DNA of 64,000 nucleotides, taken from Bacillota bacterium (GTDB taxonomy: Bacteria > Bacillota > Dethiobacteria > DTU022 > PWGO01). The notes beneath the pieces are model-generated. The model had not been told where the DNA came from. It searched no databases and saw nothing but the letters and a program-made list of their open reading frames with translations. Below are positions 24,136-54,156 of this stretch, one piece after another. Every line of letters starts with the position of its first letter. Position 1 is the stretch's first letter. Position numbers and translations under genes: made by a program. Location: NCBI GenBank assembly GCA_012518215.1, contig JAAYSV010000006.1, forward strand, positions 1 through 64,000, read 5' to 3'.

Positions 24136-24699
24136 ATGATGGGTACTGTAAAGATTGTTCTGGGGGTACTGGTAGTTGTTCTCCTGATATTCTTGATATT
24201 TACCTACAATGGTCTGGTGAGGTTGCGGCAAAGACTGAGAAATGCCTGGTCGCAGGTGGAGGTCCAGTTGAAACGTCGTTATGATTTGATTCCCAACCTG
24301 GTCAACTCGGTCAAGGGGTATGCCGCTCATGAAAAATCAACTTTTGAAGAAATTGCCCGGGTTCGGAATCAGGCTATTGCAGCCAAGACTGTAAAAGAAC
24401 AATCGCAGGCAGAAACAATGTTGTCCGGCGCCTTGCGCAGCCTCTTTGCAGTAGCCGAGGCGTATCCGGAACTCAAGGCCAATGCCAATTTCATGCAATT
24501 GCAGGAGGAACTGACCAACACGGAAAGCAAAATAGCTTTTTCTCGTCAATTTTACAATGACACGGTGCAGAAATTGAACACGAGGATCGAGTTATTCCCT
24601 ACCAACCTTGTAGCCGGCATGCTGGGATTCGGGCCGGCTGATTATTTCACATTGCAGGATGAGCCAGGAGCCCGCGAGCCGGTGGAGGTAAAATTCTAA
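24136..24699 (+). CDS. lemA: LemA family membrane protein
   Basis: LemA proteins have one N-terminal membrane helix and a long helical-bundle domain; their biochemical role is unresolved. Here the helix spans about residues 5-25 (VLVVVLLIFLIFTYNGL), followed by the conserved RLRNAWSQVEVQLKRRYDLI and PNLVNSVKGYAAHEKSTFEE segments and ELTNTESKIAFSRQFYNDTV. The length, 187 residues, is normal. The gene pairs with a DUF2207 protein downstream, a common partnership, but here the pair is split by about 400 bases containing broken copies of both genes' junction. Start choice is between two adjacent ATG codons; AAAGGA lies ten bases before the first. A surface or envelope-stress function is likely by family, not shown by sequence. 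Confidence 0.93.
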   Translation: MMGTVKIVLGVLVVVLLIFLIFTYNGLVRLRQRLRNAWSQVEVQLKRRYDLIPNLVNSVKGYAAHEKSTFEEIARVRNQAIAAKTVKEQSQAETMLSGALRSLFAVAEAYPELKANANFMQLQEELTNTESKIAFSRQFYNDTVQKLNTRIELFPTNLVAGMLGFGPADYFTLQDEPGAREPVEVKF

Positions 24700-25264
24700 A
24701 AGGGAGCATCAACTTGTTTAAACATCCTTTTTCAACTCGCATCATCTTGAGTTTCCTTTGCGCAATTTTGCTGTTGGCGATTTTCTTGCCGCGGACCGCG
24801 GAAGCCCGCAGTTTGAGGATGAATGAGTTGGTTTTTGAAGCTGAAATTTTTCCGGACGGTTCGATCTCGGTTATCGGGTAAATAACCTGGTAAAGGTTCA
24901 CAATGATGTGGCCGGGTTCTACCGTAAATTTGTTGGAGAGAAATTGCCTTTGCCTTGTTGAAACGGAGGAGATAATTGCCAGGGTGGATTGCATCTCACC
25001 GATCTGGTGGTCGGTATTCGGATTCGGCTGATTGTTCAACATTGCAGGATGAACCAGGAGCCCGCGAGCCGATGGAGATAAAATTATAAAGGGGAGGAAT
25101 CAACTTGTCTAAACGTCCTTTTTCAACACACATCATCTTGAGTTTCCTTTGCGCAATTTTGCTGTCGGCGATTTTCTTGCCGCAGACCGCGGAAGCCCGC
25201 AGTTTAAGGATGAATGAGTTGGTTTATGAAGCTGAACTTTTACCGGACGGTTCGATGTCGGTTA
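24635..25264 (+). repeat. Imperfect direct repeat spanning the lemA/DUF2207 junction
   Basis: The junction of lemA with the next gene is present twice. Positions 24635-24873 (lemA 3' end plus first 53 codons of a DUF2207 gene) match 25025-25264 with an offset of 390-391 bases and scattered substitutions. The second copy leads into the intact gene; the first leads into a broken one. This is the footprint of a tandem duplication followed by decay. Confidence 0.85.
24714..24950 (+). pseudogene. Truncated relic of a DUF2207-protein gene
   Basis: A TTG start with GGGAG upstream opens a frame whose first 53 codons are nearly the same as those of the intact gene at 25105: signal peptide, the FLPRTAEARSLRMNELV segment and FEAEIFPDGS. 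It then stops at TAA (24879-24881). Sequence identity to the intact gene resumes directly, but at a point 238 bases further along in the intact copy (around 25502), and continues for about 60 bases. A deletion between two GTTA tetranucleotides explains both the jump and the frameshift. After about 24950 the similarity is lost until the repeated lemA tail near 25025. It cannot make the full protein; a 55-residue peptide could be produced. Confidence 0.85.
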
Positions 25265-26997
25265 CCGAGCGGATCACTGTCACTTTCAACGGCACCTATG
25301 AAGGATATTTTGTATCCATTCCCCTGGACTCCACCACCATAAGTGATATCACGGTCGCCGAGGAGGGGGTCGCATACAGTTTCAATCCGGGGGAAGATTA
25401 TGGGCCACCAGGCACCTTTCTTGTCAAGCAGGATTCCAATGAAATGCTTGTCGATTGGAGTATCGATGCTACCGATGAGCAACGTACTTTCGACCTCAGT
25501 TATCGGGTGAATAACCTGGTAAAGGTGCACAATGATGTGGCCGAGTTCTACCGTAAATTTGTTGGAGAGAAGAACGAACAGAAAATTGAAAGGGTGGTTG
25601 TCCGGCTGCTGCTTCCGCCGGGAGCTGAAAATTTCACGCCGGGGACGGATATACGGATCTGGGGGCATGGTCCCCTGCACGGCGATGTTGATTTTGGAGG
25701 ACCGCGCGAGGTGATCTGGCAAATATCGGATATGCCGGCCGGCGAATTTCTGGAAGGGCGTCTGACCATGCCCGTGCAGCTTTTCCCGGAGACCCCCGCG
25801 GCCATGAAAACGGACCGGGATGCCCTGGCCTCGATTCTGGAAGAAGAGGAAGAATGGGCTGCCAAAGCCAATCTCGGCCGTTCGTGGGCGCGTCTGGAAA
25901 TTGTTGCTGCCGTGATACTCGCCCTGCTAACCATAGCTGCTCTCATATGGTTATGGTTCAGATATGGCAAGAGGCACAGACCCGAATTTCAGGGGGATTA
26001 TTACAGGGAACTACCCGCCGATTATCCCCCGGCGGTGATGTCAGTTCTTTGGAACTGGGGCAAGGTGAAGACGCACGATGTTACGGCCACCCTTATGGAT
26101 CTGGCCCGGCGCGGTTTTATTTATATCGAGCAGCAGATGTATGAAAAAAAGAGATTGTTGGGAAACAAAAATATCGTTACCTACCTGCTGACGCTGCAAA
26201 ATGAAAAATACGAAAGAGAAAAAGATGGGCTGCAACCACATGAACGTAAATTGATCGACTATTTTTTTACAACCATTTCGAAGGATAACCGCACGTTATA
26301 TCTGTATGATATCGAGCAATTTTCCCGAAAGCGCAGCCGCGAATTCTACTATAGTTTCTGGGTGCAGTGGAGTGATTCCCTGTCCAGCAAAGGGGATCAA
26401 TACAAATGGTTTGAAGGTATCCCCCAGAATGCCCGCTGGATACCGCTTGTAATCGGGATGGCATCCTTTGCCCTTGGTATGTTCCTGGTCAACAAAGATG
26501 TTTCCATTCTGGGGTGGACTGTATGTGCTTGCGCTATTCTGGTTGGTTTGCTCCCCCTCTTTTTCAAGCGGCGTTCCCGGGCGGCCAGCGAGGATTTCAG
26601 CAAATGGAAGGCGTTCCGCAAATTCCTGCTGCATTTTTCCGAAATGCAACGTCATGAAATACCCAGTCTGATTATCTGGGAACACTATCTGGTCTATGCT
26701 GTAAGCCTGGGGGTAGCCAGGGAAGTGATGAAACAACTGGAGATCGTCTTCCCCAATCTCCAGGATAGTGACTACCGCTTCGGGCAGCACTGGTATTACG
26801 GAACAGCTACCGCAGGGATGATCAGCCTGGGCGACAATTTTGAAAAAATTGGCCAGAGCCTGCAACAGTCCATAAGAGCCGCGGAAAGGACAGTGCGGGC
26901 TGCTGAAAGCAGATCCTCGAGCGGTTCGGGTGGCGGCGGTGGGTTCTCCGGCGGTGGCGGGGGAGGTTCCGGAGGAGGCAGCTACGGTGGCCGTTGA
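25105..26997 (+). CDS. DUF2207 domain membrane protein (LemA partner)
   Basis: A 630-residue secreted and membrane-bound protein. A signal peptide (about 1-32, ending AEA) precedes an extracellular beta-rich DUF2207 domain (about 33-250, opening MNELVYEAELLPDGSMSVTE). One membrane helix follows near 265-285, then a cytoplasmic domain (WNWGKVKTHDVTATLMDLAR is the family's winged-helix-like motif), two further helices near 447-490, and a C-terminal region ending in a Gly/Ser-rich tail (GGGGGFSGGGGGGSGGG). This tail is typical of the family. The TTG start follows GGGGAGG. It belongs with lemA upstream. The function of the family is unknown; envelope maintenance is the usual guess. It is the intact member of a duplicated pair. 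Confidence 0.92.
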   Translation: MSKRPFSTHIILSFLCAILLSAIFLPQTAEARSLRMNELVYEAELLPDGSMSVTERITVTFNGTYEGYFVSIPLDSTTISDITVAEEGVAYSFNPGEDYGPPGTFLVKQDSNEMLVDWSIDATDEQRTFDLSYRVNNLVKVHNDVAEFYRKFVGEKNEQKIERVVVRLLLPPGAENFTPGTDIRIWGHGPLHGDVDFGGPREVIWQISDMPAGEFLEGRLTMPVQLFPETPAAMKTDRDALASILEEEEEWAAKANLGRSWARLEIVAAVILALLTIAALIWLWFRYGKRHRPEFQGDYYRELPADYPPAVMSVLWNWGKVKTHDVTATLMDLARRGFIYIEQQMYEKKRLLGNKNIVTYLLTLQNEKYEREKDGLQPHERKLIDYFFTTISKDNRTLYLYDIEQFSRKRSREFYYSFWVQWSDSLSSKGDQYKWFEGIPQNARWIPLVIGMASFALGMFLVNKDVSILGWTVCACAILVGLLPLFFKRRSRAASEDFSKWKAFRKFLLHFSEMQRHEIPSLIIWEHYLVYAVSLGVAREVMKQLEIVFPNLQDSDYRFGQHWYYGTATAGMISLGDNFEKIGQSLQQSIRAAERTVRAAESRSSSGSGGGGGFSGGGGGGSGGGSYGGR

Positions 26998-27086: not shown

Positions 27087-28409
27087 CTACGTATTGCTTT
27101 CCCTGATAAATTCATCTTTCTTTTTGTCTTGCAGATAATAGAGTTCATGGGATTTTGCCTTCTTTTCCCGTTCCCATAATTCGTAACCCCTTTCCTGGCA
27201 ACGGGAGCAGGCATACAGTGGAATGCTGATTCCCAGAATCCGGTGGTCCCGGGGGCGGGCGCCGAGGCTTCGCGAGGAAACCTTGTAAATGCCGGGGCAG
27301 TCTGCACAGCAATATACAGATTCCTGTTGTTGTTCCCGGATACCGTCGGTGTCGTAATAGATCTGGCGGTTGTTTCTGTAGATTTTATCTGCGGGGAACA
27401 GTTCCTCCCTGTCAGGGGCTTGCCGGGCAAGTTTCTCCTGCCAGTAGCCTATCATATCCTTGATATATGCCGTAACCCGGGTGCTTTGCTCGAAATTTTG
27501 CTTGCGATATTCGGGTTCTATTACATGGTTGTAGTCCTGGCCGGCCAGGGCCAGTATGATGGCCAGATTGACGTAGGGAAGGGCTGTTTCGATCGCGTAT
27601 CCGCCTTCCAGAACGGCCAGATCGGGATTCAATTCCTCGGTGAGCCGGGCATAACCCTGGCTGGTGACTCGCATGTTGGCGAGGGGATCGGTAAAATGGT
27701 TGTCCTGCCCCGCGGAGTTGATAATCAACTCGGGGGCAAATTCTTTCAGCAGAGGGCGTATTATCTGCCGCCACACTTCAAGAAATCCCTCATCGGTAGT
27801 CTGGGGGGGCAGAGGGATATTGATGTTCTTCAAAAAAGCCCCCGGCCCTCCGGCCTCATCGACGAAACCCGATCCGGGATAGAGCGTTCTGCCATCCTGA
27901 TGCAGGGAGATAAAGAGCACGTCGGGATCATGATAGAAAATATCCTGTGTACCATCGCCGTGATGAACATCGGTGTCAACCACGGCAATTTTTTTCAGGC
28001 CGTATTTATGGCGTAGATACTCGACGAGGATGGCTTCATTGTTGATGTTGCAGAATCCCCGGTTGCCAAAAGCAACGCGCATGGCATGATGCCCCGGGGG
28101 GCGTACCAGGGAGAAACCGTTTCTTATCTCTCGATTCATCAGGGCATCGCCCAGCTTCAAGGCACTGCCGGCAGAGATAAAGTGGGCATTGGTTGCCTGC
28201 GCTTCGGTGTCGGGAACACAGAAATGAACCCTGTCAATATCTTTTTTCTCGGCCAGGCGGGGTGTATATTCAGTTATATTCAGATGGTCCAGAACCCCTT
28301 CCTCGAAGATCTGATCCCTGGTGTAAAGAAGACGTTCTTCCCGCTCCGGATGAGTGGGCGAGATGGCCCAATCAAAAGCCGGAAAAAAAATCAGCCCTGT
28401 TTTATTCAT
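27087..28409 (-). CDS. Histone-deacetylase-like amidohydrolase with C-terminal zinc ribbon
   Basis: A 440-residue protein with an arginase/HDAC fold. The His pair is in VRPPGHHAMR, zinc ligands in VDTDVHHGDGTQDIFY (Asp and His) and SAGQDNHFTDPL (Asp), and the catalytic-pocket Tyr in LEGGYAIET, so all active-site residues of acetoin-utilisation/acetylpolyamine-type deacetylases are present. After the catalytic domain (about 1-310) and a helical linker, a zinc-ribbon-like module carries C368-x2-C371 and C401-x2-C404, which is not part of the standard enzyme. It overlaps the upstream hydantoinase-like gene by eight bases and starts with GGAGG inside that gene's end, so translation is coupled. 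Substrate could be an acylated small molecule or protein; unknown. Confidence 0.9.
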   Translation of the reverse strand: MNKTGLIFFPAFDWAISPTHPEREERLLYTRDQIFEEGVLDHLNITEYTPRLAEKKDIDRVHFCVPDTEAQATNAHFISAGSALKLGDALMNREIRNGFSLVRPPGHHAMRVAFGNRGFCNINNEAILVEYLRHKYGLKKIAVVDTDVHHGDGTQDIFYHDPDVLFISLHQDGRTLYPGSGFVDEAGGPGAFLKNINIPLPPQTTDEGFLEVWRQIIRPLLKEFAPELIINSAGQDNHFTDPLANMRVTSQGYARLTEELNPDLAVLEGGYAIETALPYVNLAIILALAGQDYNHVIEPEYRKQNFEQSTRVTAYIKDMIGYWQEKLARQAPDREELFPADKIYRNNRQIYYDTDGIREQQQESVYCCADCPGIYKVSSRSLGARPRDHRILGISIPLYACSRCQERGYELWEREKKAKSHELYYLQDKKKDEFIRESNT

Positions 28410-30078
28410 GTGATTTCACCGCCTCCTCGACAAACCCCCTGATCCCCGGAACGGTCTGCAATCCGATCTGGAAGATCTTTCCCGTGGTAGCCCAGCCACG
28501 GACAATATTGAAACATTCCTCATAGGTAAATTCTGTTGCACTTTCGGGCAGATTCCATTCTTTTGCTGTCTTGTCAAAAAGGTCCTGAACAATTTTTCTG
28601 GCGTCCATGATATTTGACGGCGGGCGGTCGAGAGCCCCCTGTAGACCGCCGATATTCGTGGAATAGGATTTTCTTTCTGTGTCGGCGAAATAATCCAATT
28701 TCATGGTCGGTCTGGCCATCGCTGCACCTATGGCATTGGCGGTGGAATGGTAAGGGGGGACAATTACCTCCCGGTTTTTTTTCAGGGCCAGGTATTGGCC
28801 TATACCGGCTGCCGGCCCACCTATACAGATAATCTTGTGTGGGTGTTTTTTCTGCGCTGACAGAACCTGCCAGATGCGGTAGGCAGGTTCTTCCTCCCAT
28901 ATTTTGAACATCTCTTCCAACTTTGTTTTCAGCTTGTCGGTAAAAAGTTCAAGAACCTGTGCGCAAAAGTCAAGCGGCTCCGTATCCAGGGAAGCAGCCA
29001 TCATCTCCATCTCTTTTTTTATCGGTTCCGAAGAAGGAAAATCGCTGTACCCGATGTGGACAAGAGCGTCTGTAACCGTGAGGCGGGGACCCCCGGCGCA
29101 GAGGGCGGGACCTTCCCTCTTCCCCAGGCATATGGCGCCATCTTTTATGCGGAGGGAGCTATCTCCGCCGATGGACAGGGAGGCCACGGCCAGGGAGCGT
29201 AAAGGAATGGGATGGCCCTTGATAAAAGTGCCCCTTTCCGCCAGCAATGGTTTGCCATCCAGAAGCAATGCCATATCGGTTGTTGTACCTCCGATATCCA
29301 TTACCACGGCGGTGATCCGTTCTCCGGTAGTAGCCAGAGCACCCAATGTGCTGGCAGCCGGTCCGGAGAAGATCGTTTCCAGGGGATAGCGCAGCGATAC
29401 GTCAAGGGGCAATGTACCTCCATCGGCTTTCAATATCGAAAGAGGGCAATCAAGTTTTAGCTGCTGGAGTGTGGATGTTATTTTATCCTGAAAATCCTGA
29501 CAAGCTTCCCCGGTTGCCAGGGTGTAATATGCGCCGTTTGCCCTGCATACCCAGTTCAGCAAACCGCTTGCCCGGTGACTGGCCATCACTTCAAATGCAG
29601 GAAAATGTTTGCGGATGAAGTTAACGACCTCGAGCTCCAGGGAAGGATTCCTCTGGCTGAACTTGCATGCGACAACCATGTGTCCGATCTGTTTCTGTTG
29701 AAAATATGAACAAGCCTCCATGATTTCGGAGGAATCCACGGGTTCAATAACCCTGCCCCTGTAGTCGACAGATCCTTGCAGTATTCTGGTTTCTGCGGCA
29801 AAAGGAAGGTGGTGAGGGTTTGCACCGGGGCCGGGCAACAGAAGCAACCCGGTCTCGGGCAGGTTGCCCTGCAAGATCAAATTGGTGATAAGTGTGGTGC
29901 TTAAATTGACCTGGTCTATTTCCTGCGGTTTGACACCGATCAGTATTTCTTCCAGAGCGTTGTGTATCGAGATGGACAGATCCACCCCGGTCTCAACTTT
30001 GACCGATTTTATTATTTTCTGCCCATCAACAAGCACTCCGTCGGTAAAGGTTCCCCCGATATCGATGCCGATAAACAT
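28402..30078 (-). CDS. Hydantoinase/oxoprolinase family protein (HyuA-like)
   Basis: A 558-residue ASKHA-fold ATPase. The first phosphate loop MFIGIDIGGTFTDGVLVDG is at the very N-terminus and the second, MDIGGTTTDMALLLDGK, is near residue 270; SIGGDSSLRI and CIGGPAAGIGQYLAL are further nucleotide-site segments. Members hydrolyse cyclic amides (hydantoins, 5-oxoproline) or carboxylate ketones with ATP, usually with a B subunit; no HyuB gene is next to it. It is shorter than full-length HyuA (about 650-700) and lacks the distal part. The ATG follows GGGGGAAC. Its stop overlaps the HDAC-like gene, so the two proteins are probably made together and may act on the same amide substrate; that is inference. 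Confidence 0.87.
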   Translation of the reverse strand: MFIGIDIGGTFTDGVLVDGQKIIKSVKVETGVDLSISIHNALEEILIGVKPQEIDQVNLSTTLITNLILQGNLPETGLLLLPGPGANPHHLPFAAETRILQGSVDYRGRVIEPVDSSEIMEACSYFQQKQIGHMVVACKFSQRNPSLELEVVNFIRKHFPAFEVMASHRASGLLNWVCRANGAYYTLATGEACQDFQDKITSTLQQLKLDCPLSILKADGGTLPLDVSLRYPLETIFSGPAASTLGALATTGERITAVVMDIGGTTTDMALLLDGKPLLAERGTFIKGHPIPLRSLAVASLSIGGDSSLRIKDGAICLGKREGPALCAGGPRLTVTDALVHIGYSDFPSSEPIKKEMEMMAASLDTEPLDFCAQVLELFTDKLKTKLEEMFKIWEEEPAYRIWQVLSAQKKHPHKIICIGGPAAGIGQYLALKKNREVIVPPYHSTANAIGAAMARPTMKLDYFADTERKSYSTNIGGLQGALDRPPSNIMDARKIVQDLFDKTAKEWNLPESATEFTYEECFNIVRGWATTGKIFQIGLQTVPGIRGFVEEAVKSHE

Positions 30079-30464
30079 TTTGTTCCCCCGCGATATTGTT
30101 CTGCCTTATTTCCAACCATCTGGAAATGACCGGCAGCCTTTTTAAGAGATGGTGCAGCGATCCGGATGTTGTCATTCATGCAGGCGATGATTATCAGAAC
30201 AGAAAGGACCTGCAACCGTCTTTTCACTACGTCATCGTATCATGCTGGCAAACAGAATGTCAATTTGTGGAGATGGGCTACATCATTTTGTCTCCCTTCC
30301 GTAACAAGAGTTACCTTCCCTGGATCGTTGCTAAAATTTCCTGCATGGTGGTTCCAGGATATTTTCACCATGCCAAAAAAGGATTTTGGCTTGGAAAACA
30401 ATAAGTATATAGTTGGTGTCTGTTGCTTGACCCTGTTAGTTTTGCGAGATGGGAAGGTGGAGAA
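30079..30464. other. Divergent intergenic region
   Basis: This region separates the minus-strand HyuA-like gene from the plus-strand J-domain gene. Several open frames of 90-120 codons cross it on both strands, but none has a ribosome site or a recognisable protein. A TATATAGT-like sequence near 30406 may be part of the J-domain gene promoter. Confidence 0.45.
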
Positions 30465-31292
30465 ATGGAGGGGAAGGAACTCGATGTTTCCCGGGAGTAT
30501 ATTGCCCTCATGGAACAACTATCATCCCTGAAAACCGAACTTTCCAAACTTATTTCTGACCACGATTTTTTGATCAACACGGTCAAGCCCAATCTGGAAA
30601 TGAAGTATCATATCTGTATCGGGAAGGAACAGTACCGCCTGTACCTGGTCAGGAATGAAACGTTGAGAATACGTCGCAAAATAGAAATGATCCAGGCTTC
30701 CTTGAATCGGGGAGAGGTTCCCGATCTGCAGAAGATAGAACAGAAACTGGACATCGAGCTGCAAAAATGGAAAGAAGAAGTCCTTGAGTTGCAGCGCAAA
30801 ATAAAAGAAGCTCAAGAACGGGAAAAATTGTCCTGTCTATCTCCCGACGATTCCCGGGAACTCAGAAAGTTGTACCGGGAACTGGTCAAGAGGTTGCATC
30901 CCGACATCAACAAGAACCTTCCTGACAACTTGAAATACATATGGGCACGGGTTCTTGAAGCTTACAAAAACAGCGATCTGGAAGAATTGCAGGTGCTGGC
31001 GTCGTTTTTGCCGGAACAGGAAGAATCTGCTGCCGGTGCCTCTACAATGGAGCAGCTGTCCGCGGATATCGACAACCTTCGCGGGAAAATCGAGAGACTT
31101 CTGAAGACCCTTGCTACCATGCGGGATGAATTTCCATTCAACATGGAAAAAAAACTGGGGGATCCGGATTGGGTTGAAAAGGAGCAGAGAATGATTCGGA
31201 AAGAACTGAAAAGATATCAACTGCAGAAACAGACTTACAGTGCTTTTCTGGAGGACCTATTGAAACCCGATATTGACAAAAAAATTCATTGA
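30465..31292 (+). CDS. Coiled-coil protein with internal J-like domain
   Basis: A 275-residue soluble protein. Residues 1-125 are highly charged helices with heptad-like pattern (two coiled coils, the second about 85-122). A DnaJ-like stretch follows: RELRKLYRELVKRLHPDINK with the HPD triad at 145-147, the residues that stimulate DnaK ATPase. The rest of the J-domain helix III/IV region (YIWARVLEAYKNSDLEELQV) fits. A C-terminal helical region (about 200-275) completes it. The ATG at 30465 has AAGGTGG just upstream. It is 12 bases before a HIRAN protein gene, so the two form an operon. It may recruit DnaK to a specific client; DnaK itself is not in the window. J-domains placed mid-protein after a coiled coil are seen in several poorly known Firmicutes proteins. 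Confidence 0.85.
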   Translation: MEGKELDVSREYIALMEQLSSLKTELSKLISDHDFLINTVKPNLEMKYHICIGKEQYRLYLVRNETLRIRRKIEMIQASLNRGEVPDLQKIEQKLDIELQKWKEEVLELQRKIKEAQEREKLSCLSPDDSRELRKLYRELVKRLHPDINKNLPDNLKYIWARVLEAYKNSDLEELQVLASFLPEQEESAAGASTMEQLSADIDNLRGKIERLLKTLATMRDEFPFNMEKKLGDPDWVEKEQRMIRKELKRYQLQKQTYSAFLEDLLKPDIDKKIH

Positions 31293-31304
31293 GGGTGAAC
31301 AGGC

Positions 31305-31703
31305 ATGAGCCAGGAACTGGTCCCTTCCGACCGGGAAATGTGGCGTTTCATACAAAAATATTTTGACGGCGACACATCAATTGCTCCTTATGTACAGGAG
31401 ATCTTTTTGATGGATTCCCATATTGCCGGAACCAGTCATCTGAGCCTTGAGGAAATCGAACCGGATCTTGAACCGGGCGACCCCCTGTTATTTCGCCGGG
31501 AACCGGATAATGAATATGACAGTCTGGCCATTGTTATCTTCGACAGGAAGGAAAGAAAATTGGGTTACCTCCCCCGGGAGAAGAATGAGGTGCTGGCGCG
31601 CATGATGGATGCCGGGAAAATGCTTTTTGGCAAACTTGAATCCAAGGAATGGAAAGGCAAGTGGCTGAAGATCAAGATCAGGATATTTTTGAGGGATCTC
31701 TGA
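31305..31703 (+). CDS. HIRAN-domain protein
   Basis: A 132-residue protein whose C-terminal 90 residues form a HIRAN domain: IAGTSHLSLEEIEPDLEPGD, followed by LLFRREPDNEYDSLAIVIFD, with KLGYLPREKNEVLARMMDAG at the end. In eukaryotic HLTF and Rad5 this fold binds single-stranded 3' DNA ends; bacterial stand-alone versions are thought to sense unusual DNA or to act as adaptors. The N-terminal 40 residues are a short helical extension. The gene follows the J-domain coiled-coil gene at 12 bases, with GAGGGTGA before its ATG. There is no helicase or nuclease next to it. A link between chaperone recruitment and damaged DNA is possible but untested. Confidence 0.85.
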   Translation: MSQELVPSDREMWRFIQKYFDGDTSIAPYVQEIFLMDSHIAGTSHLSLEEIEPDLEPGDPLLFRREPDNEYDSLAIVIFDRKERKLGYLPREKNEVLARMMDAGKMLFGKLESKEWKGKWLKIKIRIFLRDL

Positions 31704-40373: not shown

Positions 40374-41513
40374 ATGAAAGTGAACGACAGGGATGCCAAA
40401 GGGCATGTGAAAAAATATTTTCCCGGTTCAAACTCTGCTTACGGGTTCTATTCGTTCTACGACCAGATCATTGCAGATGATGCTACGAGGAAATACATAA
40501 TAAAGGGGGGCCCCGGTGTAGGAAAATCCACCTTCATGCGTTCCATAGCCGAGAAATTTTTGGGAATGGGTTATGATCTGGAGTTCCATTGCTGTTCATC
40601 AGACAACGATTCACTCGACGGCATCGTTATACCCCTGTTGGGTATTGCATGCATTGACGGTACGGCACCACACACAGTGGACCCCCGGAATCCAGGGGTG
40701 GTTGATGAGATAATCCATCTGGGGGATTTCTGGGATGAAAAAGGGATCTTGCGTCATCGCGAAGCTATCCTGGAAACGAATCGGGAAAAATCAAGGTTGT
40801 TCAGGCGTGCATACAATTATCTTGCGGCAGCAAAATTGTTTCTGGATGAGGTAGAAGGGTATTATATTGAAAATGATGCCCTGGACAAAGTTGGTTTGGA
40901 CAAACTCGCTTTGCAGATGAACAGGGAAATATTTCAGGACCGGGTCAACGAACACGTGGGAGATAAGCCAATACGCCGGGAGAGGCATATGTTTGCCACG
41001 GCGATAACCCCGGCCGGGCCGATCAGTTACCTCGAATCATTGCTTTCCGGTATTGAAAAAAAGTATATTATCGACGGAGACGATGGGACCGGCAAGAACG
41101 ATCTGATATCCAGAGTTATGGATGCTGCAAAAATGCGCGGTTTTTTCGTGGAAATATATCACTGCGCCCTGGATCCCCACAAGATTGACCATGTAATTAT
41201 CCCCGAACTCGGAGTTGCAGTTTTGAACAGCGTTACCCCGCACATCCTGCAACCGGGCCCGGAAGATACTGTGATTGAAACCGGTCAATATACCCGTGAT
41301 CCGGGGGGGGAACGAGTGCAGGAAAGGGAGACGGCACGGGAATTGTATCATCGTTCGATGGACACTGCTGTTTCCTTTTTTCATAGAGCAAAGGCAGCCC
41401 ATGATGAACTGGAATCATATTATATCCCCAACATGAACTTCGGGGACATTGACCGCCTCCGACATCAAATAATCAAAAAGATCAGCTCGTATGCCCACGG
41501 CGGTGAACAGTGA
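40374..41513 (+). CDS. Two-lobed P-loop NTPase of unknown function
   Basis: A 379-residue protein built from two related P-loop halves. The first has a complete Walker A, IKGGPGVGKSTF at residues 45-53, followed by a Cys-Cys segment (FHCCSSDNDSLDGIVIPLLG). The second half repeats the plan: KKYIIDGDDGTGKNDLISRV near residue 236, IYHCALDPHKIDHVIIPELG and AVLNSVTPHIL. In the second loop the Ser/Thr after Lys is replaced by Asn, so ATP-driven chemistry there is doubtful. It resembles an uncharacterised Firmicutes NTPase family; I cannot give a function. It has a Met start 23 bases after a GGGGG stretch and no clear partner genes, with the 57-residue Cys protein 250 bases downstream. Confidence 0.82.
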   Translation: MKVNDRDAKGHVKKYFPGSNSAYGFYSFYDQIIADDATRKYIIKGGPGVGKSTFMRSIAEKFLGMGYDLEFHCCSSDNDSLDGIVIPLLGIACIDGTAPHTVDPRNPGVVDEIIHLGDFWDEKGILRHREAILETNREKSRLFRRAYNYLAAAKLFLDEVEGYYIENDALDKVGLDKLALQMNREIFQDRVNEHVGDKPIRRERHMFATAITPAGPISYLESLLSGIEKKYIIDGDDGTGKNDLISRVMDAAKMRGFFVEIYHCALDPHKIDHVIIPELGVAVLNSVTPHILQPGPEDTVIETGQYTRDPGGERVQERETARELYHRSMDTAVSFFHRAKAAHDELESYYIPNMNFGDIDRLRHQIIKKISSYAHGGEQ

Positions 41514-42551: not shown

Positions 42552-44210
<1,659 letters not shown>

Positions 44211-44231
44211 GATACAGAAACGATGACGAAG

Positions 44232-44264
44232 AAAGAACCCGGTTATTTTCCGGGTTCTTTTTTT
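44232..44264 (+). terminator. Intrinsic terminator of groES-groEL
   Basis: A perfect 11-bp stem AAAGAACCCGG/CCGGGTTCTTT with a seven-base loop ends in a run of T residues, 22 bases after the groEL stop. Confidence 0.92.
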
Positions 44265-44634
44265 AATCGACGTCGTTTTGAAGACATAACAGCAACCTGA
44301 AAGAGTGTCTGTACAGCAAGAAAGCAAAATTGTTTTCCGGAAGACCCTCGCCATCGATTGGAATAGCCTGTCCTCCATTTCATTGTCTTTATTGTAATGA
44401 GGTAACCTTTTGCGGGAATCTGATTTTGACGGAATAAAGTGAAATTTGGATGACATTGTAATATAATAGGTGGTGTTTTGGGGGATAGACGTTGCCTGAT
44501 TGATACGGAAGCAGGAAAAAGACCCATTTTGGATAACCTGCAGTACCGGGAGATCTTGCGGGTCGGGCCATACGGACTGTCCATGGTTTGGAGGCCGTAG
44601 AAGTTTTGATGTCGGTTCGGCCACGGGGGGTATT
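44265..44634 (+). other. Promoter and long leader region of guaA
   Basis: TATAAT at 44462-44467 is the likely -10 box, but no good -35 box lies 16-18 bases upstream. The leader of about 165 bases between it and the guaA start contains complementary segments such as GACCC (about 44520) and GGGTC (about 44559). I compared it by eye with guanine, PRPP, ZTP and THF riboswitch patterns and found no convincing match. The reading frame of guaA stays open back to 44500, but without a ribosome site. Confidence 0.4.
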
Positions 44635-46059
44635 ATGGAATTGCAGAAAGTTTTGCTCATCGATCTGGGTGGGAGTTACACACAACTGATAGCTCGAAAG
44701 ATCAGGGAAAAGGGTGTTTACAGTGAAATAACACCCTGTACCACCGGACTGAAAAAAATAAGAAATCGTGATGCCCGCGCCTTGATAATCAGTGGCGGGC
44801 CTGAACAGCTGGATGAGAAAATTTTTTCCATGCTGGAGAAAGATATCTTCCAGCTGGGGCGGCCGATCATGGCGGTGGGTCATGGCTTGAGAGTTCTGCC
44901 TGGTGTTGAATCATCTGACACGACGGATATTGCAGGCCAGCTTCATGGATTGCATTACAGGGCTATTTTTGATGGATTCGAAGCGGGGAGAGACACCCCC
45001 GGGGGGGCCACAGTGCCATTGCTGGGCGCCCTGTCACTGCCGGAGGAAAAAAGCGGAGGGGACCTCCTGGATTATTTTCTTTTCGAGGTGGCAGGCCTTG
45101 AACCCACGTGGACACCCGCTTCCTTCATAAAGCATGCCATCGAAGCAGCAGGATCGCAGATACCGGAAGATGCGCATGCCGTCTGCGGCCTAAGCGGGGG
45201 TATCGATTCCGTGGTCGCCGCCTTGCTTGTTCATCGGGCCATCGGTGATCGTCTGACCTGCATTTTTGTCGATCACGGGCTGATGCGTGAGGGCGAGGCA
45301 GAAGAGGTTACGGAAATATATCGTCGGAATTACAACCTGCCTGTAATGGTGGTGGATGCCGCCGCGGAGTTTATCGAAAGACTCAAGGGCATTACCGATC
45401 CTGAGGAAAAACGCCAAATTATCGGCGAACATTTTATCCGAGTTTTTGAGAGGGAAGCCAGTTATCTGAAAGGGGTGGAGTACCTGGTGCAGGGAACGAT
45501 CTACCCCGACATTATTGAAAGCATTTCCCCCTCGGGAGAAATAATCAAGAGCCATCACAATGTAGGCGGGCTTCCGGAGAAGATGCGTCTGAAACTGATT
45601 GAACCGATAAGAGAATTATTCAAGGACGAAGTGCGTGATGTTGCTGAAATCATGGGTTTGCCCGCTGAAATTGTCTGGAGACAACCCTTCCCCGGCCCCG
45701 GCCTGGGAGTAAGAATCCTTGGTGAAGTCACCGAAGAAAAAATAAGGATTGTCAGGCGTGCCAATGCCATCGTGGAAGAAGAAGTCGAAAGGGCAGGCCT
45801 TACCTATTCTATCTGGCAATGTTTTGCCATCCTGCCGGAAATAAGATCCGTCGGTGTTGAAAAGGGGAAGCGAACTTATGCACACTCCATCATTCTGCGA
45901 GCTGTGACCAGCCGCGACGCCATGACAGCTGACTGGTACCGTTTCCCGCATGATTTTCTGGACAGGCTGGCCAGGCGCATTACCGATGAAATCCCGGAAA
46001 TAAACAGGGTCCTCTACGATATAACATCCAAACCCCCGGCCACGATAGAGTGGGAGTAG
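44635..46059 (+). CDS. guaA: GMP synthase with degenerate amidotransferase domain
   Basis: GuaA turns XMP into GMP with ATP and an amide nitrogen. The synthetase part is intact: pyrophosphatase loop CGLSGGIDSVVAALLVHRAI at residues 184-203, FVDHGLMREGEAEEVTEIYR, the HHNVGGLPEKM loop, PFPGPGLGVRILGEVTEEKI and the C-terminal DITSKPPATIEWE. The N-terminal glutaminase domain is not. Where the nucleophile Cys should sit (GICYG), the sequence reads AVGHG with Gly82 in place of Cys. The domain is also about 50 residues short, since the SGGIDS loop comes at 187 rather than near 235, and the HPE motif with the catalytic His and Glu is absent, as is the SHGD segment. The domain end (GGDLLDYFLFEVAGLEPTW) still aligns. 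It should therefore use free ammonia, or borrow a separate glutaminase. ATG 44635 has GGGGGG upstream. Confidence 0.93.
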   Translation: MELQKVLLIDLGGSYTQLIARKIREKGVYSEITPCTTGLKKIRNRDARALIISGGPEQLDEKIFSMLEKDIFQLGRPIMAVGHGLRVLPGVESSDTTDIAGQLHGLHYRAIFDGFEAGRDTPGGATVPLLGALSLPEEKSGGDLLDYFLFEVAGLEPTWTPASFIKHAIEAAGSQIPEDAHAVCGLSGGIDSVVAALLVHRAIGDRLTCIFVDHGLMREGEAEEVTEIYRRNYNLPVMVVDAAAEFIERLKGITDPEEKRQIIGEHFIRVFEREASYLKGVEYLVQGTIYPDIIESISPSGEIIKSHHNVGGLPEKMRLKLIEPIRELFKDEVRDVAEIMGLPAEIVWRQPFPGPGLGVRILGEVTEEKIRIVRRANAIVEEEVERAGLTYSIWQCFAILPEIRSVGVEKGKRTYAHSIILRAVTSRDAMTADWYRFPHDFLDRLARRITDEIPEINRVLYDITSKPPATIEWE

Positions 46060-46139
46060 TCAACATCACCCCGGAAACCTGACAAAACGGCGCAATTTCT
46101 TCTGGCGCAAAAAAGCTGAGGTGAGGCGCCTGGGGGCAG

Positions 46140-46369
46140 TTGGTGAATCTGTTTTATGCCTTCAAGAAAAACCGAAATATTGTTCGTATAGAGATCAAGA
46201 AGGGGAATATATTGCTCTGCATGAAGCTGAATACGGCACATATTCCGGAAGAACAAAAGGAAAGCTTGGTTGGTGATGCTGGTGATGTGGAGCGCCAGGT
46301 ACAGGTGATTTAGAATCAGCAATAAAATACGGTTCCGATTTTGAACGAATCAAATTTTTGGATGATTGA
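46140..46369 (+). pseudogene. Frameshifted relic resembling a DUF5655 C-terminus
   Basis: Between guaA and purE a 57-codon frame (46140-46313) encodes FYAFKKNRNIVRIEIKKGNI, LLCMKLNTAHIPEEQKESLV and GDAGDVERQVQ, then hits TAG. Reading in the next frame from 46307 (GDLESAIKYGSDFERIKFLD) continues the same type of protein to TGA at 46367-46369. Joined, the two look like the C-terminal part of DUF5655-type domains (YYIAFK..NF..I ... GHYGTGDLE ... DFEKA). The N-terminal remainder is missing. I read it as a broken gene fragment with one frameshift. Confidence 0.5.
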
Positions 46370-46394
46370 TAACTGATATCAAAATTAATAAAAG
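46366..46394 (+). promoter_or_regulatory. Possible promoter for purE
   Basis: TTGATA (46366-46371), a 17-base spacer and TAAAAG (46389-46394) lie about 90 bases before purE. The -10 box is weak; a second candidate TATTAT is at 46397. No PurR-box-like repeat is recognised. Confidence 0.35.
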
Positions 46395-46484
46395 GATATT
46401 ATAACGCTTGAACAGAATTGTTTGGAATAAGCTAGTAATTTGTGGGTGGAAATAAAAATCAATGTATCAGAAGGAGCCGAAATC

Positions 46485-47021
46485 ATGAATCCCAAACTGG
46501 TCTCGATTGTCATGGGCAGCGATTCCGATCTTCCGGTGATGCAGGAATCAGCATTGGCCCTCGATAAATTTGGCATCGGCTACGATATTTTCATTGCCAG
46601 CGCCCACCGCCATCCGGAAAAAACGGCATCTCTGGCCCGCAATGCAGCCGGGGATGGAAAGAAGGTCATTATTGCCGGGGCCGGGGGGGCAGCTCATCTG
46701 CCGGGTGTTCTTGCTTCGATGACCACTCTTCCGGTCATCGGTATTCCGATACGGGGCCGGGCCCTTGAAGGCATGGATTCCCTTTTATCGATTGTTCAGA
46801 TGCCCCGGGGCATACCGGTAGCCACGGTGGCCGTGGATGGTGCTTTCAATGCAGGACTGCTTGCCGTGCAGATCATTGCCATTGCTGATCCGGTATTGCA
46901 AGAAAAATTGAACGGGTATCGCCATGATCTATCAAAGGATGTTGAGCAGAAAGACAGGTATTTGCAGGAAGGGGGCTTTCGAAAATACCTCAAGGAAAAA
47001 CTTCCTCCCAGGAGAACCTGA
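46485..47021 (+). CDS. purE: N5-carboxyaminoimidazole ribonucleotide mutase PurE
   Basis: PurE moves the carboxyl group of N5-CAIR to give CAIR in purine synthesis. The 178 residues have MGSDSDLPVMQESALALDKF, the active-site SAHRHPEKT and the class I signature AGAGGAAHLPGVLAS, so it is the mutase type that needs PurK. No purK is in the cluster; it must be elsewhere, or N5-CAIR arises another way. AAGGAG precedes ATG 46485; in-frame codons from 46440 lack a site. The stop is 63 bases before the preferred purF start. This is the first intact gene of the run purE-purF-hppA. Confidence 0.96.
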   Translation: MNPKLVSIVMGSDSDLPVMQESALALDKFGIGYDIFIASAHRHPEKTASLARNAAGDGKKVIIAGAGGAAHLPGVLASMTTLPVIGIPIRGRALEGMDSLLSIVQMPRGIPVATVAVDGAFNAGLLAVQIIAIADPVLQEKLNGYRHDLSKDVEQKDRYLQEGGFRKYLKEKLPPRRT

Positions 47022-47084
47022 AAAACAATAGATGGAGATATGATTTTGGAAGTGGAAATATCGTTTGAAAATGGGGGTCCCGAC

Positions 47085-48479
47085 ATGGATGCTGAAAAAA
47101 ATGGTGCCGATCCCGGGGATAATGAGATAAGGGAAGAATGTGGTCTTTTCGGCGGTATAATAAAAAATAAAAGCGCGGTTCAGACGGCCTGTTTTGCTCT
47201 CTACGCCTTGCAGCACAGGGGCCAGGAGAGTGCCGGCATTGCTGTAGAGAATGGAGAGAGAATCTGGATCAAGAAAGGGATGGGCCTGGTTTCGGAAGTT
47301 TTTGGGGATATGGGGTCTCTTGATCGGCACAAGGGAAATCTGGTCCTGGGGCATGTTCGTTACTCCTATGGAGAAGATGGCCTCTGTCCCGAGAACACGC
47401 AGCCTTTGTTGTTCAGGTATCGTTTCGGTGAATTGGCCATAGCCCACAACGGTAACCTTTTGAATCATTGCCAGCTTCGTAACGGTCTGGAGTCACAGGG
47501 GGCTATATTCCAAACTTCGACAGATAGCGAACTGCTGGCTCATTTTGTTGCCCGCGAAGGAAGTCCCGAAATAGAAGAATCTTTGAAGAGAGTTGTCCCC
47601 GCCCTTCGGGGGGGGTATGCATTTATTATCCTGACCAGGGGCAAGGTCATCGGCCTGAGGGACCCGTTGGGAATCAGGCCGCTATCCATTGGCCTTCTGA
47701 ACGGGAAGGATTATGTACTGGCTTCGGAAACGTGTGCTTTCGATACGATAGGTGCTGAATTCGTACGTGAGGTCGAACCGGGGGAAATGGTTATCATCTC
47801 CGACAAATGGCTCAGTTCCCACAGGATTGCCCCATCCCCGCGGTCCGCTCTTTGCATATTTGAATTCATATATTTTGCACGGCCTGACAGTGATCTTTGC
47901 GGCAAGAATGTTCATCTGGTACGCAGGGAGTTGGGGCGCATACTTGCCCGTGAACATCCGGTTGAGGCGGACATCGTTATCGGTGTCCCTGATTCCAGTA
48001 TTTCTGCAGCCTCCGGTTTTGCTGAAAAGTTGGGCCTGCCCTTCGAGATGGGGCTGATCAAGAATCGCTATATCGGAAGGAACTTTTTACAGCCAAGCCC
48101 CGAGATGAGAAAACTCAAGGTGGGTATCAAGCTCAACCCTGTACGGAGCATCGTCGATGGGAAAAAAGTGGCGATTATTGATGATTCCATAGTTCGGGGA
48201 ACGACGAGCCTTCAGTTGATCAAGATGGTGAAGCAAGCCGGTGCCAGAGAAGTTCATATGCGCATCAGCTCCCCGCCGGTCATCTCGCCATGTTACTACG
48301 GGATCAATATTCCCGTTCCGGGAGAACTGATCGCTTCAAGGGGGGAGAAAGAAATTCAAAAATTGATCAAGGCCGATTCTCTCGGGTTCCTGAGCATGGA
48401 AGAGATGATCGCGGCGGTTGATATCCCGAGGGACAAATTGTGCCTGGCATGTTTTACCGGCGATTATCCCCTTGATTGA
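47085..48479 (+). CDS. purF: Amidophosphoribosyltransferase PurF
   Basis: PurF starts purine synthesis by transferring glutamine nitrogen to PRPP, releasing PPi. The glutaminase Cys is in EECGLFGG at about residue 19 and would be exposed by propeptide removal, as in B. subtilis. The PRPP site is VAIIDDSIVRGTTSLQLIKM. The Fe-S cluster Cys positions of the Bacillus type are present: ALCIFEFIYFARPDS, ISPCYYGI and LCLACFTGDYP at the end. Start choice: ATG 47085 has GGGGGT seven bases upstream, while ATG 47040 has a GGAG only two bases away and would give a long propeptide. hppA, which consumes PPi, follows after 120 bases. Confidence 0.96.
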   Translation: MDAEKNGADPGDNEIREECGLFGGIIKNKSAVQTACFALYALQHRGQESAGIAVENGERIWIKKGMGLVSEVFGDMGSLDRHKGNLVLGHVRYSYGEDGLCPENTQPLLFRYRFGELAIAHNGNLLNHCQLRNGLESQGAIFQTSTDSELLAHFVAREGSPEIEESLKRVVPALRGGYAFIILTRGKVIGLRDPLGIRPLSIGLLNGKDYVLASETCAFDTIGAEFVREVEPGEMVIISDKWLSSHRIAPSPRSALCIFEFIYFARPDSDLCGKNVHLVRRELGRILAREHPVEADIVIGVPDSSISAASGFAEKLGLPFEMGLIKNRYIGRNFLQPSPEMRKLKVGIKLNPVRSIVDGKKVAIIDDSIVRGTTSLQLIKMVKQAGAREVHMRISSPPVISPCYYGINIPVPGELIASRGEKEIQKLIKADSLGFLSMEEMIAAVDIPRDKLCLACFTGDYPLD

Positions 48480-48599
48480 GATGATCCACCATCTTATTTT
48501 TGTTCAGCTTAAAGGATTTACCGTTTTTATTTATAATATATTATAATATACCAATAATATATAATTTCTGTAATTTTTGAAGGGAGGTTTTAACGGGTA

Positions 48600-50585
48600 A
48601 TGGCAGAAGAATTGTTTTGGTGGGTTCCTGCCTGCGGCGTTGTCGGATTGATATTTGCCGTAATATTATGGTTGCGTATAGGCAAAGCCGAGGCCGGGAC
48701 GCAGAAGATGGCGAGCATTGCTGCCGCTATCAGGGAGGGAGCGATGACTTTTATTAAAAGGGAGTATTTTTATCTCGCTTTTTTTGTTATCGCTCTGTTT
48801 GCAGTCCTTGGATACCAGGTGGATATACAGACGGCGATCAGCTTTTTTGTCGGTGCTGTATTTTCCGCCCTGGCCGGTTTTGTGGGGATGCGCGTGGCCA
48901 CGATGGCCAATGTCAGGACTGCGGCGGCGGCCAGAAAAGGGATCAGCCCTGCCCTGACGTTGGCCTTTTCCAGCGGAACGGTGATGGGAATGATGGTGGC
49001 CGGGCTGGGATTGTTGGGTGTGGGAATTCTTTACATATTCATCAAGGATCCTGCAATGGTGAACGGTTACGCGCTGGGTGGAAGTTCGATTGCACTTTTT
49101 GCGCGGGTGGGTGGCGGGATCTATACCAAAGCCGCCGACGTGGGTTCGGACCTGGTGGGTAAAATAGAGGCGGGGATACCTGAAGATGATCCTCGCAACG
49201 CCGGTGTCATTGCTGACAACGTGGGGGACAATGTAGGTGATGTGGCCGGGATGGGCGCCGACCTTTTTGAATCATACGTGGGCTCCCTGATAGCCACGAT
49301 GACCCTGGGAGTGGTCGTCTATGCGAACCAGGGTTTGTCCATGCAGGCAGTCCTGCTGCCGCTTCTGGTAGCTTCTGTAGGGATACTTGCTTCCCTGGTC
49401 GGATTCTTTTTCGTACGGGCGAGGGAAGGGGTGCGCCTCGGTGCGGTCCTTGACCGTGGCGTTATTGTCAGTGCAATCATCGTGGTGGTGGCATCTTATT
49501 TTCTAACTATCAATTTGCTGGGTGATCTGAATGTTTTCTGGGCTATTCTATCCGGTCTTCTGGCCGGGATCATTATTGGCCGGCTGACCGAATATTACAC
49601 ATCCGATCACTTCAAGCCGGTTAAAAATATCGCCCAGGCTTCGGAAACCGGTACAGCGACCAACATCATCGGCGGCCTGGCCATCGGTATGAGAAGTACG
49701 GTGCTGCCCGTTCTGGCCATCGTCGTCGCCATATTGGTATCATATCATCTGGCGGGTATATACGGAATTGCCATTGCTGCTGTGGGTATGCTTTCCACGG
49801 TGGGCATGACGGTGGCTGTTGATGCCTACGGCCCCGTGGCGGACAACGCCGGGGGTATTGCGGAGATGGCAGAACTTGAACCGGAAGTGCGCAAGGTGAC
49901 GGATGAACTGGACTCGCTGGGCAATACAACCGCGGCTATTGGCAAGGGGTTTGCCATCGGTTCGGCAGCGCTTACGGCTCTTGCACTTTTTACCGCTTAT
50001 ACCCAGGTCGCAGGCCTGGAACGGATCGATATAACCAATGCCAGCGTGATCGCGGGGTTGCTGATCGGCGGGGTTATTACTTTCTTCTTTGCGGCTCATA
50101 CTATGGATGCCGTGGGTAAAGCTGCCGGAATGCTTATCGAAGAAATCCGGAGGCAGTTCCGGGAGATACCCGGCCTGATGGATGGAAAGGCAAAACCTGA
50201 ATATGCACGTTGTGTAGATATAAGCACCAAGGCAGCCCTGAAACAGATGATCATTCCGGGTGTGGCAGCCGTGGTTGTTCCCATTGCGGTGGGAGTGATT
50301 CCTTTCCTGGGCCCGGAGGCGCTGGGTGGGCTTCTGGCCGGTTCCCTCGTTACCGGGGTTTTGCTGGCCATATTCATGGCCAATGCCGGCGGAGCCTGGG
50401 ATAATGCCAAAAAATACATCGAGTCAGGCGAGCATGGAGGCAAAGGTAGCGAAGCACATAAAGCTGCCGTTGTGGGAGACACGGTCGGCGACCCGTTCAA
50501 AGACACATCGGGGCCGTCGATGAACATTCTTATCAAGCTGATGAGCATTGTCGCCCTGGTCTTCGCGCCCCTGTTCATGAAGTAG
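48600..50585 (+). CDS. hppA: Membrane-bound proton/sodium-pumping pyrophosphatase
   Basis: HppA couples PPi hydrolysis to ion pumping. The 661 residues span about 16 helices. The catalytic loops are present: [19 protein letters not shown] with the catalytic Lys-Glu region, [40 protein letters not shown] and [38 protein letters not shown] has Ala where potassium-independent enzymes have Lys, so this is a potassium-dependent type; the ion pumped (proton or sodium) cannot be decided by eye. GGGAGG precedes the ATG. Its place between purF and purM is unusual: it would remove the PPi made by PurF and GuaA and store its energy. The region 48520-48575 upstream is very A/T-rich with several TATAAT-like strings, so it may also have its own promoter. 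Confidence 0.97.
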
Positions 50586-50621
50586 AAGCGTAGCCGAAAA
50601 GCTCCGGGGTGGACGGGATCG

Positions 50622-50657
50622 AAACCCTCCCCATGTTCATCGGGGAGGGTTTTTATT
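50622..50657 (+). terminator. Intrinsic terminator between hppA and purM
   Basis: An 11-bp perfect stem AAACCCTCCCC/GGGGAGGGTTT with a nine-base loop is followed by TTTTTATTT, 36 bases after the hppA stop and about 50 before purM. It should end or weaken transcription inside the purine cluster. Confidence 0.9.
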
Positions 50658-50703
50658 TGGCTGTAAATATTTACCGGACAAATCCACAGGAGGATCAACG
50701 AAG

Positions 50704-51765
50704 ATGCCCGAAAAGATAGATTACAGGAAATCTGGCGTGAACCTGGCCGCGGCTGACCGGGTTGTGGATGAAATAAGAAATCTGGTGAGAAAGGCCGACC
50801 GTGACGAAGTCATGCATGGAATAGGGGGGTTCGCCGGCCTTTTTGCCCTTGATACGAAGAAATACCGTGAACCGGTTCTGGTGTCGGGAACCGATGGTGT
50901 GGGAACAAAGTTGAAACTGGCATTCGAGATGAACAGGCATGATACCGTCGGTGAGGATTGTGTGGCCATGTGCGTCAACGATATCCTTGTCCAGGGTGCA
51001 GAGCCGCTTTTTTTTCTGGATTATCTTGCTGTCGGGGAATTGAAGCCGAAACAGGTAGCCCGGATCGTGGCCGGAGTGGTGGCCGGATGCCGGAAGGCCG
51101 GTTGTGCCCTGCTGGGTGGGGAGACGGCGGAGATGCCCGGTTTTTATCCGCCGGATGAGTACGACCTGGCCGGATTTGCCGTCGGGGTGGTGGAGAGGGA
51201 ACGGATCGTGGATGGTTCCGCCATCGAATCGGGACATCTTCTGCTGGGGATAGCATCTTCCGGGGTGCACAGCAATGGATTCTCACTGGTCAGAAAGGTT
51301 CTGGAAATCAAAAATATTCCCCTGGATACCAGAATGCCTTACAAGGGCGAGGACGGCAGGGAAGCCATTCTTGGAACGGAGTTGCTCAAACCGACCGAGA
51401 TATACGTCCCGGCGGTGTTGCCCCTGCTGGACAGATTTGCAATCGGGGGGATGGCGCATATCACCGGCGGGGGGCTGCCCGGAAACCTTGCCAGGATACT
51501 CCCTGCAGGATTGAACATTCGCCTTTGCACTGACAGATGGGAGAGGCCCGGGATATTCGACTTTATACGTGAGCAGGGGGGTATCGATATGGAGGAGATG
51601 TACCGTGTTTTCAACATGGGCATCGGTTTTGTATTGATCGTTTCCCCGCAGGATGCACCGGAAATACAGGAGGCCCTGCAGCAGAATACCACCAACAGGA
51701 CATGGATTATCGGTGAGGTTACGGGCGAAAAAGGTGACGTAGGCAGGAAAGTGATTTTTGCCTGA
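50704..51765 (+). CDS. purM: Phosphoribosylformylglycinamidine cyclo-ligase PurM
   Basis: PurM closes the imidazole ring of FGAM to AIR with ATP. The 353 residues show the family landmarks [60 protein letters not shown] and [26 protein letters not shown] lies ten bases before the ATG. It is the first gene after the intergenic terminator, and its own promoter must lie within about 50 bases; nothing clear is seen, so read-through from hppA is likely. The purL, purQ and purS genes that make its substrate are not here. Confidence 0.97.
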
Positions 51766-51928
51766 GTTCTGAAAAATGGCGGAAACCTGTATTCCGGTAT
51801 GCCCCATGGCCCGGCATGGCCTCGACATTGCCAGTCAATTTTTCATCTACTGCAAAAACGTCAAAAATGGATGCAAGTGTTGTTGCCGGCTTTTTTGAAA
51901 ATAATAGATATTCAAGGGGATGATCTGT

Positions 51929-54089: not shown

Positions 54090-54156
54090 CCTTTATTTTT
54101 ATTTATGGTTGCCTGATAGATAAAAAATGGATTCATATTCTGGAGGGAAGAGTGTC

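Follow-up and report, generated by a model that had tools for sequence, protein, structure and literature searches.

Two adjoining genes in a 64,000-nt stretch of the genome of a Bacillota bacterium (contig JAAYSV010000006.1; hereafter the window) encode a protein of the histone deacetylase (HDAC) fold with a C-terminal zinc-ribbon-like domain and a HyuA-like ATPase. That the two constitute a real, old and near-obligate functional unit is almost certain; the two genes have stayed together over long evolutionary times, and the proteins very probably act jointly. The pair is a widespread old family, not a local curiosity of one genome. Both halves come from known superfamilies. No description of a ribboned HDAC combined with a HyuA-like partner was found in the main texts of the open-licence literature searched.

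Distribution, gene order and co-evolution of the pair

Orthologues were collected from 99 relatives, the best 80 loci on GTDB genome contigs, 398 genomes of the phylum and 196 genomes of the phylum of Methanosarcina. Among the 398 phylum genomes, 161 contain the HDAC gene (match at E 1e-60) and 154 the HyuA-like gene (match at E 1e-90); both genes are present in 152 genomes, the HDAC gene alone in 9, the HyuA-like gene alone in 2, and neither in 235. Presence and absence of the two genes coincide in 387 of the 398 genomes, a tally uncorrected for shared descent. The first-pass annotation, which was made from the window alone, had proposed a search for the ribbon fusion and the gene pair in other genomes, and this search showed that the pair is not unique to the genome of the window. 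About two-fifths of the sampled genera of the phylum (101/267 for the HDAC gene, 100/267 for the HyuA-like gene) and one methanogen group carry genes of the pair, yet the NCBIfam models miss the HDAC, matching neither the window protein nor any of 40 family members (0/40). The ribboned HDAC was found in 14/196 genomes of the phylum of Methanosarcina, each time with at least 786 bits; the next match there reaches 339 bits and ends at position 328 of 436. No gene fusion of HDAC and HyuA was seen among the open reading frames (ORFs) examined.

Of the 11 genomes with a single gene, four (G098, G100, G146, and G371) score E 1e-61 to 1e-64, the range of the HDAC without a ribbon in G098 (locus L027), with G100, G146, and G371 judged from the score alone. 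In five more (G072, G319, G476, G196, and G462) pieces of the partner are present at the ends of contigs or in interrupted frames; two HDAC-only genomes (G314 and G337) were left out of this check. In G462 (L228:793-2557) the HDAC gene downstream of the HyuA-like gene breaks off after only 28 codons and a 341-aa ORF comes next, possibly on a chimeric contig.

At the level of loci, the two genes adjoin on the same strand in 180/183 cases and lie at most 400 nt apart in 176. In the underlying table the window appears twice (as WIN and L135), rows sharing the first 300 residues are taken once, and four loci (L228, L229, L230, and L233) that lack an HDAC ORF of more than 250 bits are omitted. The short contigs L229 and L230 contain the HDAC gene only in part, and in L229 this part precedes the HyuA-like gene. 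Two of the three loci off the pattern (L010 and L197) reach a contig edge, whereas the third (L220) has the genes apart and on opposite strands. Both window ORFs and their 8-nt overlap lie exactly where the first-pass annotation had placed them (Table 1). The translational coupling that it deduced from this overlap is a fair inference for the window, but judged by approximate starts an overlap is kept at only 70 of 180 loci; the spacing is 0–20 nt at 47, 21–100 nt at 30, 101–400 nt at 29, and larger at 4 loci.

In many Bacillota the pair is embedded in a common gene string, miaB-ylbF-mutS-pair-mutL-miaA-hfq-AAA ATPase (L031-L110, e.g., L032:261-11622). Among the best 80 loci listed, a mutS cluster lies upstream in 36 and a mutL cluster downstream in 37, one member of each cluster having been annotated by Pfam. 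Such a position would suit accessory proteins of mismatch repair, a role that we rejected as very improbable: the pair occurs without mutS and mutL in the archaea, in many other Bacillota, and in the window, and its partial distance correlations with MutS and MutL are weak. For the 42 loci in which HDAC, HyuA, MutS, and MutL are all complete, the partial correlation was 0.63 (0.49–0.74) for HDAC-HyuA and 0.68 for MutS-MutL, which served as the positive control, whereas the four cross pairs ranged from -0.11 to 0.27; HDAC-HyuA stood above every cross pair in 99.8% of 500 bootstrap resamplings of the loci. Still less credible is the view that two unrelated genes are held together merely by a conserved operon. 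The stable string common to both genes in many Bacillota speaks for it, but their joint presence and absence and their association outside the string and in archaea already largely contradict it.

Away from the mutS-mutL string the neighbours of the pair differ from locus to locus, from a histidine kinase and a NosD-type surface protein in Methanosarcina to MurB, MgtE, aminotransferase, solute-binding protein, DnaB, ABC and antiporter-type genes at other loci, and they give no clue to function. A defence system was rejected on zero PADLOC matches at E 0.01, and a mobile element on one 25% partial match to viral contigs and on 0/170 matching plasmid records covering 80% of the query. Two further observations concern the neighbourhood: a putative methyltransferase gene (PF04445) often follows mutL in the strings of L031-L110, and a cysteine-motif protein with zero Pfam matches at E 1e-5 (L067:7350-8057) is encoded downstream of the HDAC gene in four Methanothrix-type loci.

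A tree was built from 83 ribboned proteins, drawn as a sample, together with 8 ribbonless ones, and a 100/100 branch parts the two sets. The archaeal rows (Methanosarcina, Methanothrix, and their kin) form one clade (100/98) nested in Bacillota, where the sole Armatimonadota row is nested as well. The window protein groups with L031, L032, L034, and L039, three of which carry mutS-pair-mutL and one (L034) mutS only; from this grouping, the lineage of the window probably lost the mutS-mutL placement of the pair.

Sequence and structure of the two proteins

By sequence, the HDAC belongs to the classical zinc-dependent deacylase superfamily as a ribbon-bearing variant of the class II type. Its AlphaFold2 (AF2) model, built with a 40-row alignment and containing no metal, superposes on HdaH (5g3w_A) with Z 37.2 over 316 residues at 2.2 Å; the VIA-align structural rows span residues 1–332, the ribbon being outside the fold comparison. 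With the class II enzymes HdaH, HDAC6, and Kdac1 the protein shares the arginase-deacetylase fold (Z 35–37 over 306–322 residues), the double His, the Asp-His-Asp metal site, RPPxHH, and EGGY. It differs from class II HDACs (cluster 1) by a C-terminal extension of approximately 100 residues that holds an invariant CxxC...CxxC, by the reading SAGQDNH where the HDAC6 sequences compared have AGFDA, and, compared with HdaH, HDAC6, and Kdac1, by its near-obligate HyuA-like partner.

The catalytic residues, all of which the first-pass annotation had described as retained, are conserved throughout the orthologues: H107, H108, D147, and H149 in 184/184 rows, D236 and Y271 in 183/183 rows that have a letter there. 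Their roles were assigned by alignment to HDAC6 and from a legend in PMC11532494. The stretch R103 P104 P105 G106 H107 H108 is invariant in the 40-row alignment, and residue 268 is E in 174 of 183 rows, giving EGGY, and Q in the other 9. According to the main text of PMC11532494, RPPxHH and EGGY mark robust deacetylases with a pocket that fits acetate and not longer acyl chains; this main text, supplements apart, contains zero mentions of a zinc ribbon, a zinc finger, or hydantoin. Within a conserved N-terminal loop (residues 8–38), the stretch of residues 13–25 has pLDDT values below 50, yet is almost wholly invariant, which would fit a surface ordered by the partner, or merely the missing metal or substrate.

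The C-terminal domain carries four cysteines (C368, C371, C401, and C404), which had been reported from the window as an addition to the standard enzyme. Their positions proved right, and far from being absent from orthologues, all four occur in each of the 182 aligned rows that extend this far; two more rows (L022 and L023) end at contig edges before this point. In the AF2 model the domain forms a separate beta-rich mini-domain, with strands and one helix predicted, and of its ten-residue pLDDT blocks counted from residue 341, seven are at 91–97, one at 88, and two at 68–71. Pfam gave no family over cut-off for the domain in five members, with sub-threshold matches in three and none in two, and the best match of a 17-sequence ribbon profile against the PDB had E 0.062. 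The domain is zinc-ribbon-like in that it is rich in beta structure and conserves two CxxC knuckles, and zinc binding is predicted.

The HyuA-like protein scores far under the NCBIfam cut-offs of the models for the ATPase subunits of caprolactamase and acetophenone carboxylase. The best structural matches of its AF2 model are the ATPase subunits of acetone carboxylase (5svc_B, Z 32.0 over 514 residues at 4.0 Å) and acetophenone carboxylase (ApcA 5l9w_b, Z 27.0), with caprolactamase (6yra_A) at Z 22.5. Set against the likeness to acetone carboxylase are an identity of 19% over the aligned residues and the absence of carboxylase subunit genes beside the HyuA-like gene among the window genes scanned by Pfam.

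Residues D6, D261, P240, and D268, which correspond by pairwise alignment to D11, D295, P272, and D302 of CapA, are kept in 130, 130, 130, and 128 of 130 full-length rows, respectively. Mutation of CapA D11 and D295 lowered product formation, as stated in PMC8453981; the same paper describes ATP-dependent lactamases as a HyuA ATPase plus a metal-dependent hydrolase subunit and assigns the hydrolytic step of caprolactamase to the HyuB-type subunit. The pair accordingly shares with CapAB, 5-oxoprolinase, and N-methylhydantoinase the phosphate-binding aspartates and the arrangement of two such subunits, but differs from CapAB and HyuAB in lacking HyuB and having a hydrolase of another fold. The HyuA-like subunit is also shorter than CapA (558 vs. 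696 aa) and reads KADGG in place of CapA QSNGG, with K217 and D219 each in 129/130 rows; the substrate chemistry may therefore differ.

The first-pass statement that no HyuB is present holds, with zero matches to PF02538 in the genome of the window, which is approximately 97% complete. Since HyuB is absent, we did not file the pair as a HyuAB enzyme, although its proposed mode of action would resemble that of an ATP-dependent amidohydrolase in two parts. HyuB, PxpA, and other class II HDACs were sought in the first 40 of 50 pair-bearing and the first 40 of 50 other phylum genomes drawn, 13 ambiguous genomes being excluded; HyuB was absent from 30/40 genomes with the pair, and present in 10/40 of these and in 5/40 genomes without it.

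Possible activities of the pair

ATP-dependent lactamases pair HyuA with a metal hydrolase, and here an HDAC accompanies a HyuA-like protein; on this analogy we tentatively favour an ATP-linked amide deacylase that strictly needs both proteins, the HDAC being its hydrolytic half. The HyuA-like subunit would be a working ATPase or kinase of the HyuA/CapA/acetone-carboxylase type and would activate the amide through phosphorylation at the carbonyl oxygen, the mechanism proposed for CapA, or gate its partner with ATP. The HDAC subunit, as an active zinc amidohydrolase, would remove an acetyl-sized acyl group from the amide, thereby performing the hydrolysis that a HyuB-type subunit performs in lactamases. 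The ribbon could be a structural or docking module, and the two proteins would form a physical complex. If true, an ATPase-dependent HDAC would bring new enzymology to a fold that has been studied intensively. The proposal in its widest form, with an HDAC-fold zinc enzyme in the place of HyuB as a new kind of ATP-dependent amidohydrolase, conserved in many anaerobic Bacillota and acquired once by the Methanosarcina/Methanothrix lineage, appears rather unlikely as a whole. Of the first-pass suggestion of an amide degradation or modification pathway, the real functional pair is supported, whereas the amide degradation pathway and the role of the HyuA-like protein as a cyclic-amide hydrolase are at most possible: caprolactamase hydrolysis is assigned to the HyuB-type subunit, which is lacking here, and QSNGG reads KADGG.

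Several points weigh against an ATP-linked deacylase. HDACs as described are not known to need ATP, so that their chemistry does not call for an ATP partner. The separated genes of L220 mean that strict operon coupling is not essential, and the overlap of the two genes is not conserved. The counterpart of the CapA adenosine motif GxxPGP reads REGPA, which resembles it only in part, with P324 in 74/130 rows. A HyuB does occur in 10/40 pair-bearing genomes, where it may or may not belong with this HyuA. Finally, a mutual exclusion of the pair and ribbonless class II HDACs, strong among the 99 relatives, fails across the phylum: a plain class II HDAC match (100–172 bits) was found in 0/23 pair-bearing and 55/76 other relatives, whereas in the phylum sample another class II HDAC above 100 bits occurs in 5/40 and 10/40 genomes, respectively. 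Exclusivity is weak in the latter sample and was therefore not used as support. The frames of the ribbonless class II HDACs of relatives G001-G098 are mostly approximately 350–375 aa long.

Closely following the ATP-linked amide deacylase is the possibility that the HDAC is an ordinary ATP-independent deacetylase of lysine or of a small molecule, and the HyuA-like protein a regulator or the catalyst of a separate step, such as phosphorylation of the substrate or product. The class II catalytic and acetyl-specific motifs agree with this, as does the distribution among the relatives, where the plain enzyme is missing as if replaced, and the ASKHA proteins in the structure match list include regulators and metabolite kinases. 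The failure of exclusivity in the wider phylum counts against it, and partners so tightly paired and co-evolving would seem to share more than a loose regulatory link. It is improbable, in turn, that the pair is an ATP-dependent lactamase or 5-oxoprolinase standing in for PxpABC. The resemblance of the HyuA-like protein to the caprolactamase A subunit and a zinc site of the HDAC replacing HyuB would permit it, but PxpA (PF03746) occurs in 11/40 pair-bearing and 18/40 other genomes (p 0.16), which does not support a replacement; the change from QSNGG also disfavours it, and pocket motifs of acetyl size, as understood from the main text of PMC11532494, would be ill-suited to a lactam.

The pair is present in two Syntrophomonas loci (L082 and L101), S. 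wolfei itself being outside the sample. Acyl-lysine modification is abundant in syntrophic bacteria, and the pair is a candidate eraser in them. The acylome study of S. wolfei (PMC9676460) names, in its main text, a putative sirtuin as eraser, and the terms "histone deacetylase" and "hydantoinase" are absent from that main text.

Features of the window

Table 1. Position and basis of the features assigned to the gene pair in the window.
Feature	Coordinates	Strand	Basis
Predicted HDAC-fold zinc deacylase gene with C-terminal ribbon (P0001), 440 aa	27087..28409	-	ORF; PF00850, E 2.2e-68; AF2 superposition on HdaH 5g3w_A
HyuA-like ASKHA ATPase gene (P0002), 558 aa, upstream partner	28402..30078	-	ORF; PF05378, E 1.1e-27, and PF01968, E 1.5e-33; AF2 model on 5svc_B
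8-nt overlap ATGAATAA of HDAC start and HyuA-like stop	28402..28409	-	ORF coordinates and sequence
Catalytic core matched by PF00850, residues 73-275; H107/H108, D147, H149, D236, Y271; RPPGHH 103-108, EGGY 268-271	27585..28193	-	Pfam match; alignment; motif meaning from main text of PMC11532494
C-terminal ribbon domain, residues 343-438, CxxC...CxxC (C368, C371, C401, C404)	27096..27383	-	AF2 pLDDT; invariant cysteines
Putative GAGGAGG ribosome-binding-site-like stretch inside HyuA-like gene, 12 nt before HDAC ATG	28422..28428	-	By eye

Convergent to the HDAC gene, a LemA family gene is followed by a gene for a DUF2207 membrane protein with a Gly/Ser-rich tail (24136-26997), and divergent from the pair lie a DnaJ-like gene, under the Pfam cut-off, and a HIRAN-domain gene (30423-31703). 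A 379-aa ORF at 40374-41513 has zero Pfam matches at E 1e-5. Further on (42555-55422), a TCP-1/cpn60-family chaperonin gene stands beside purine genes for GMP synthase, an amidotransferase/phosphoribosyltransferase protein, AICARFT, and GARS, and an H+-pyrophosphatase gene sits among these purine genes.

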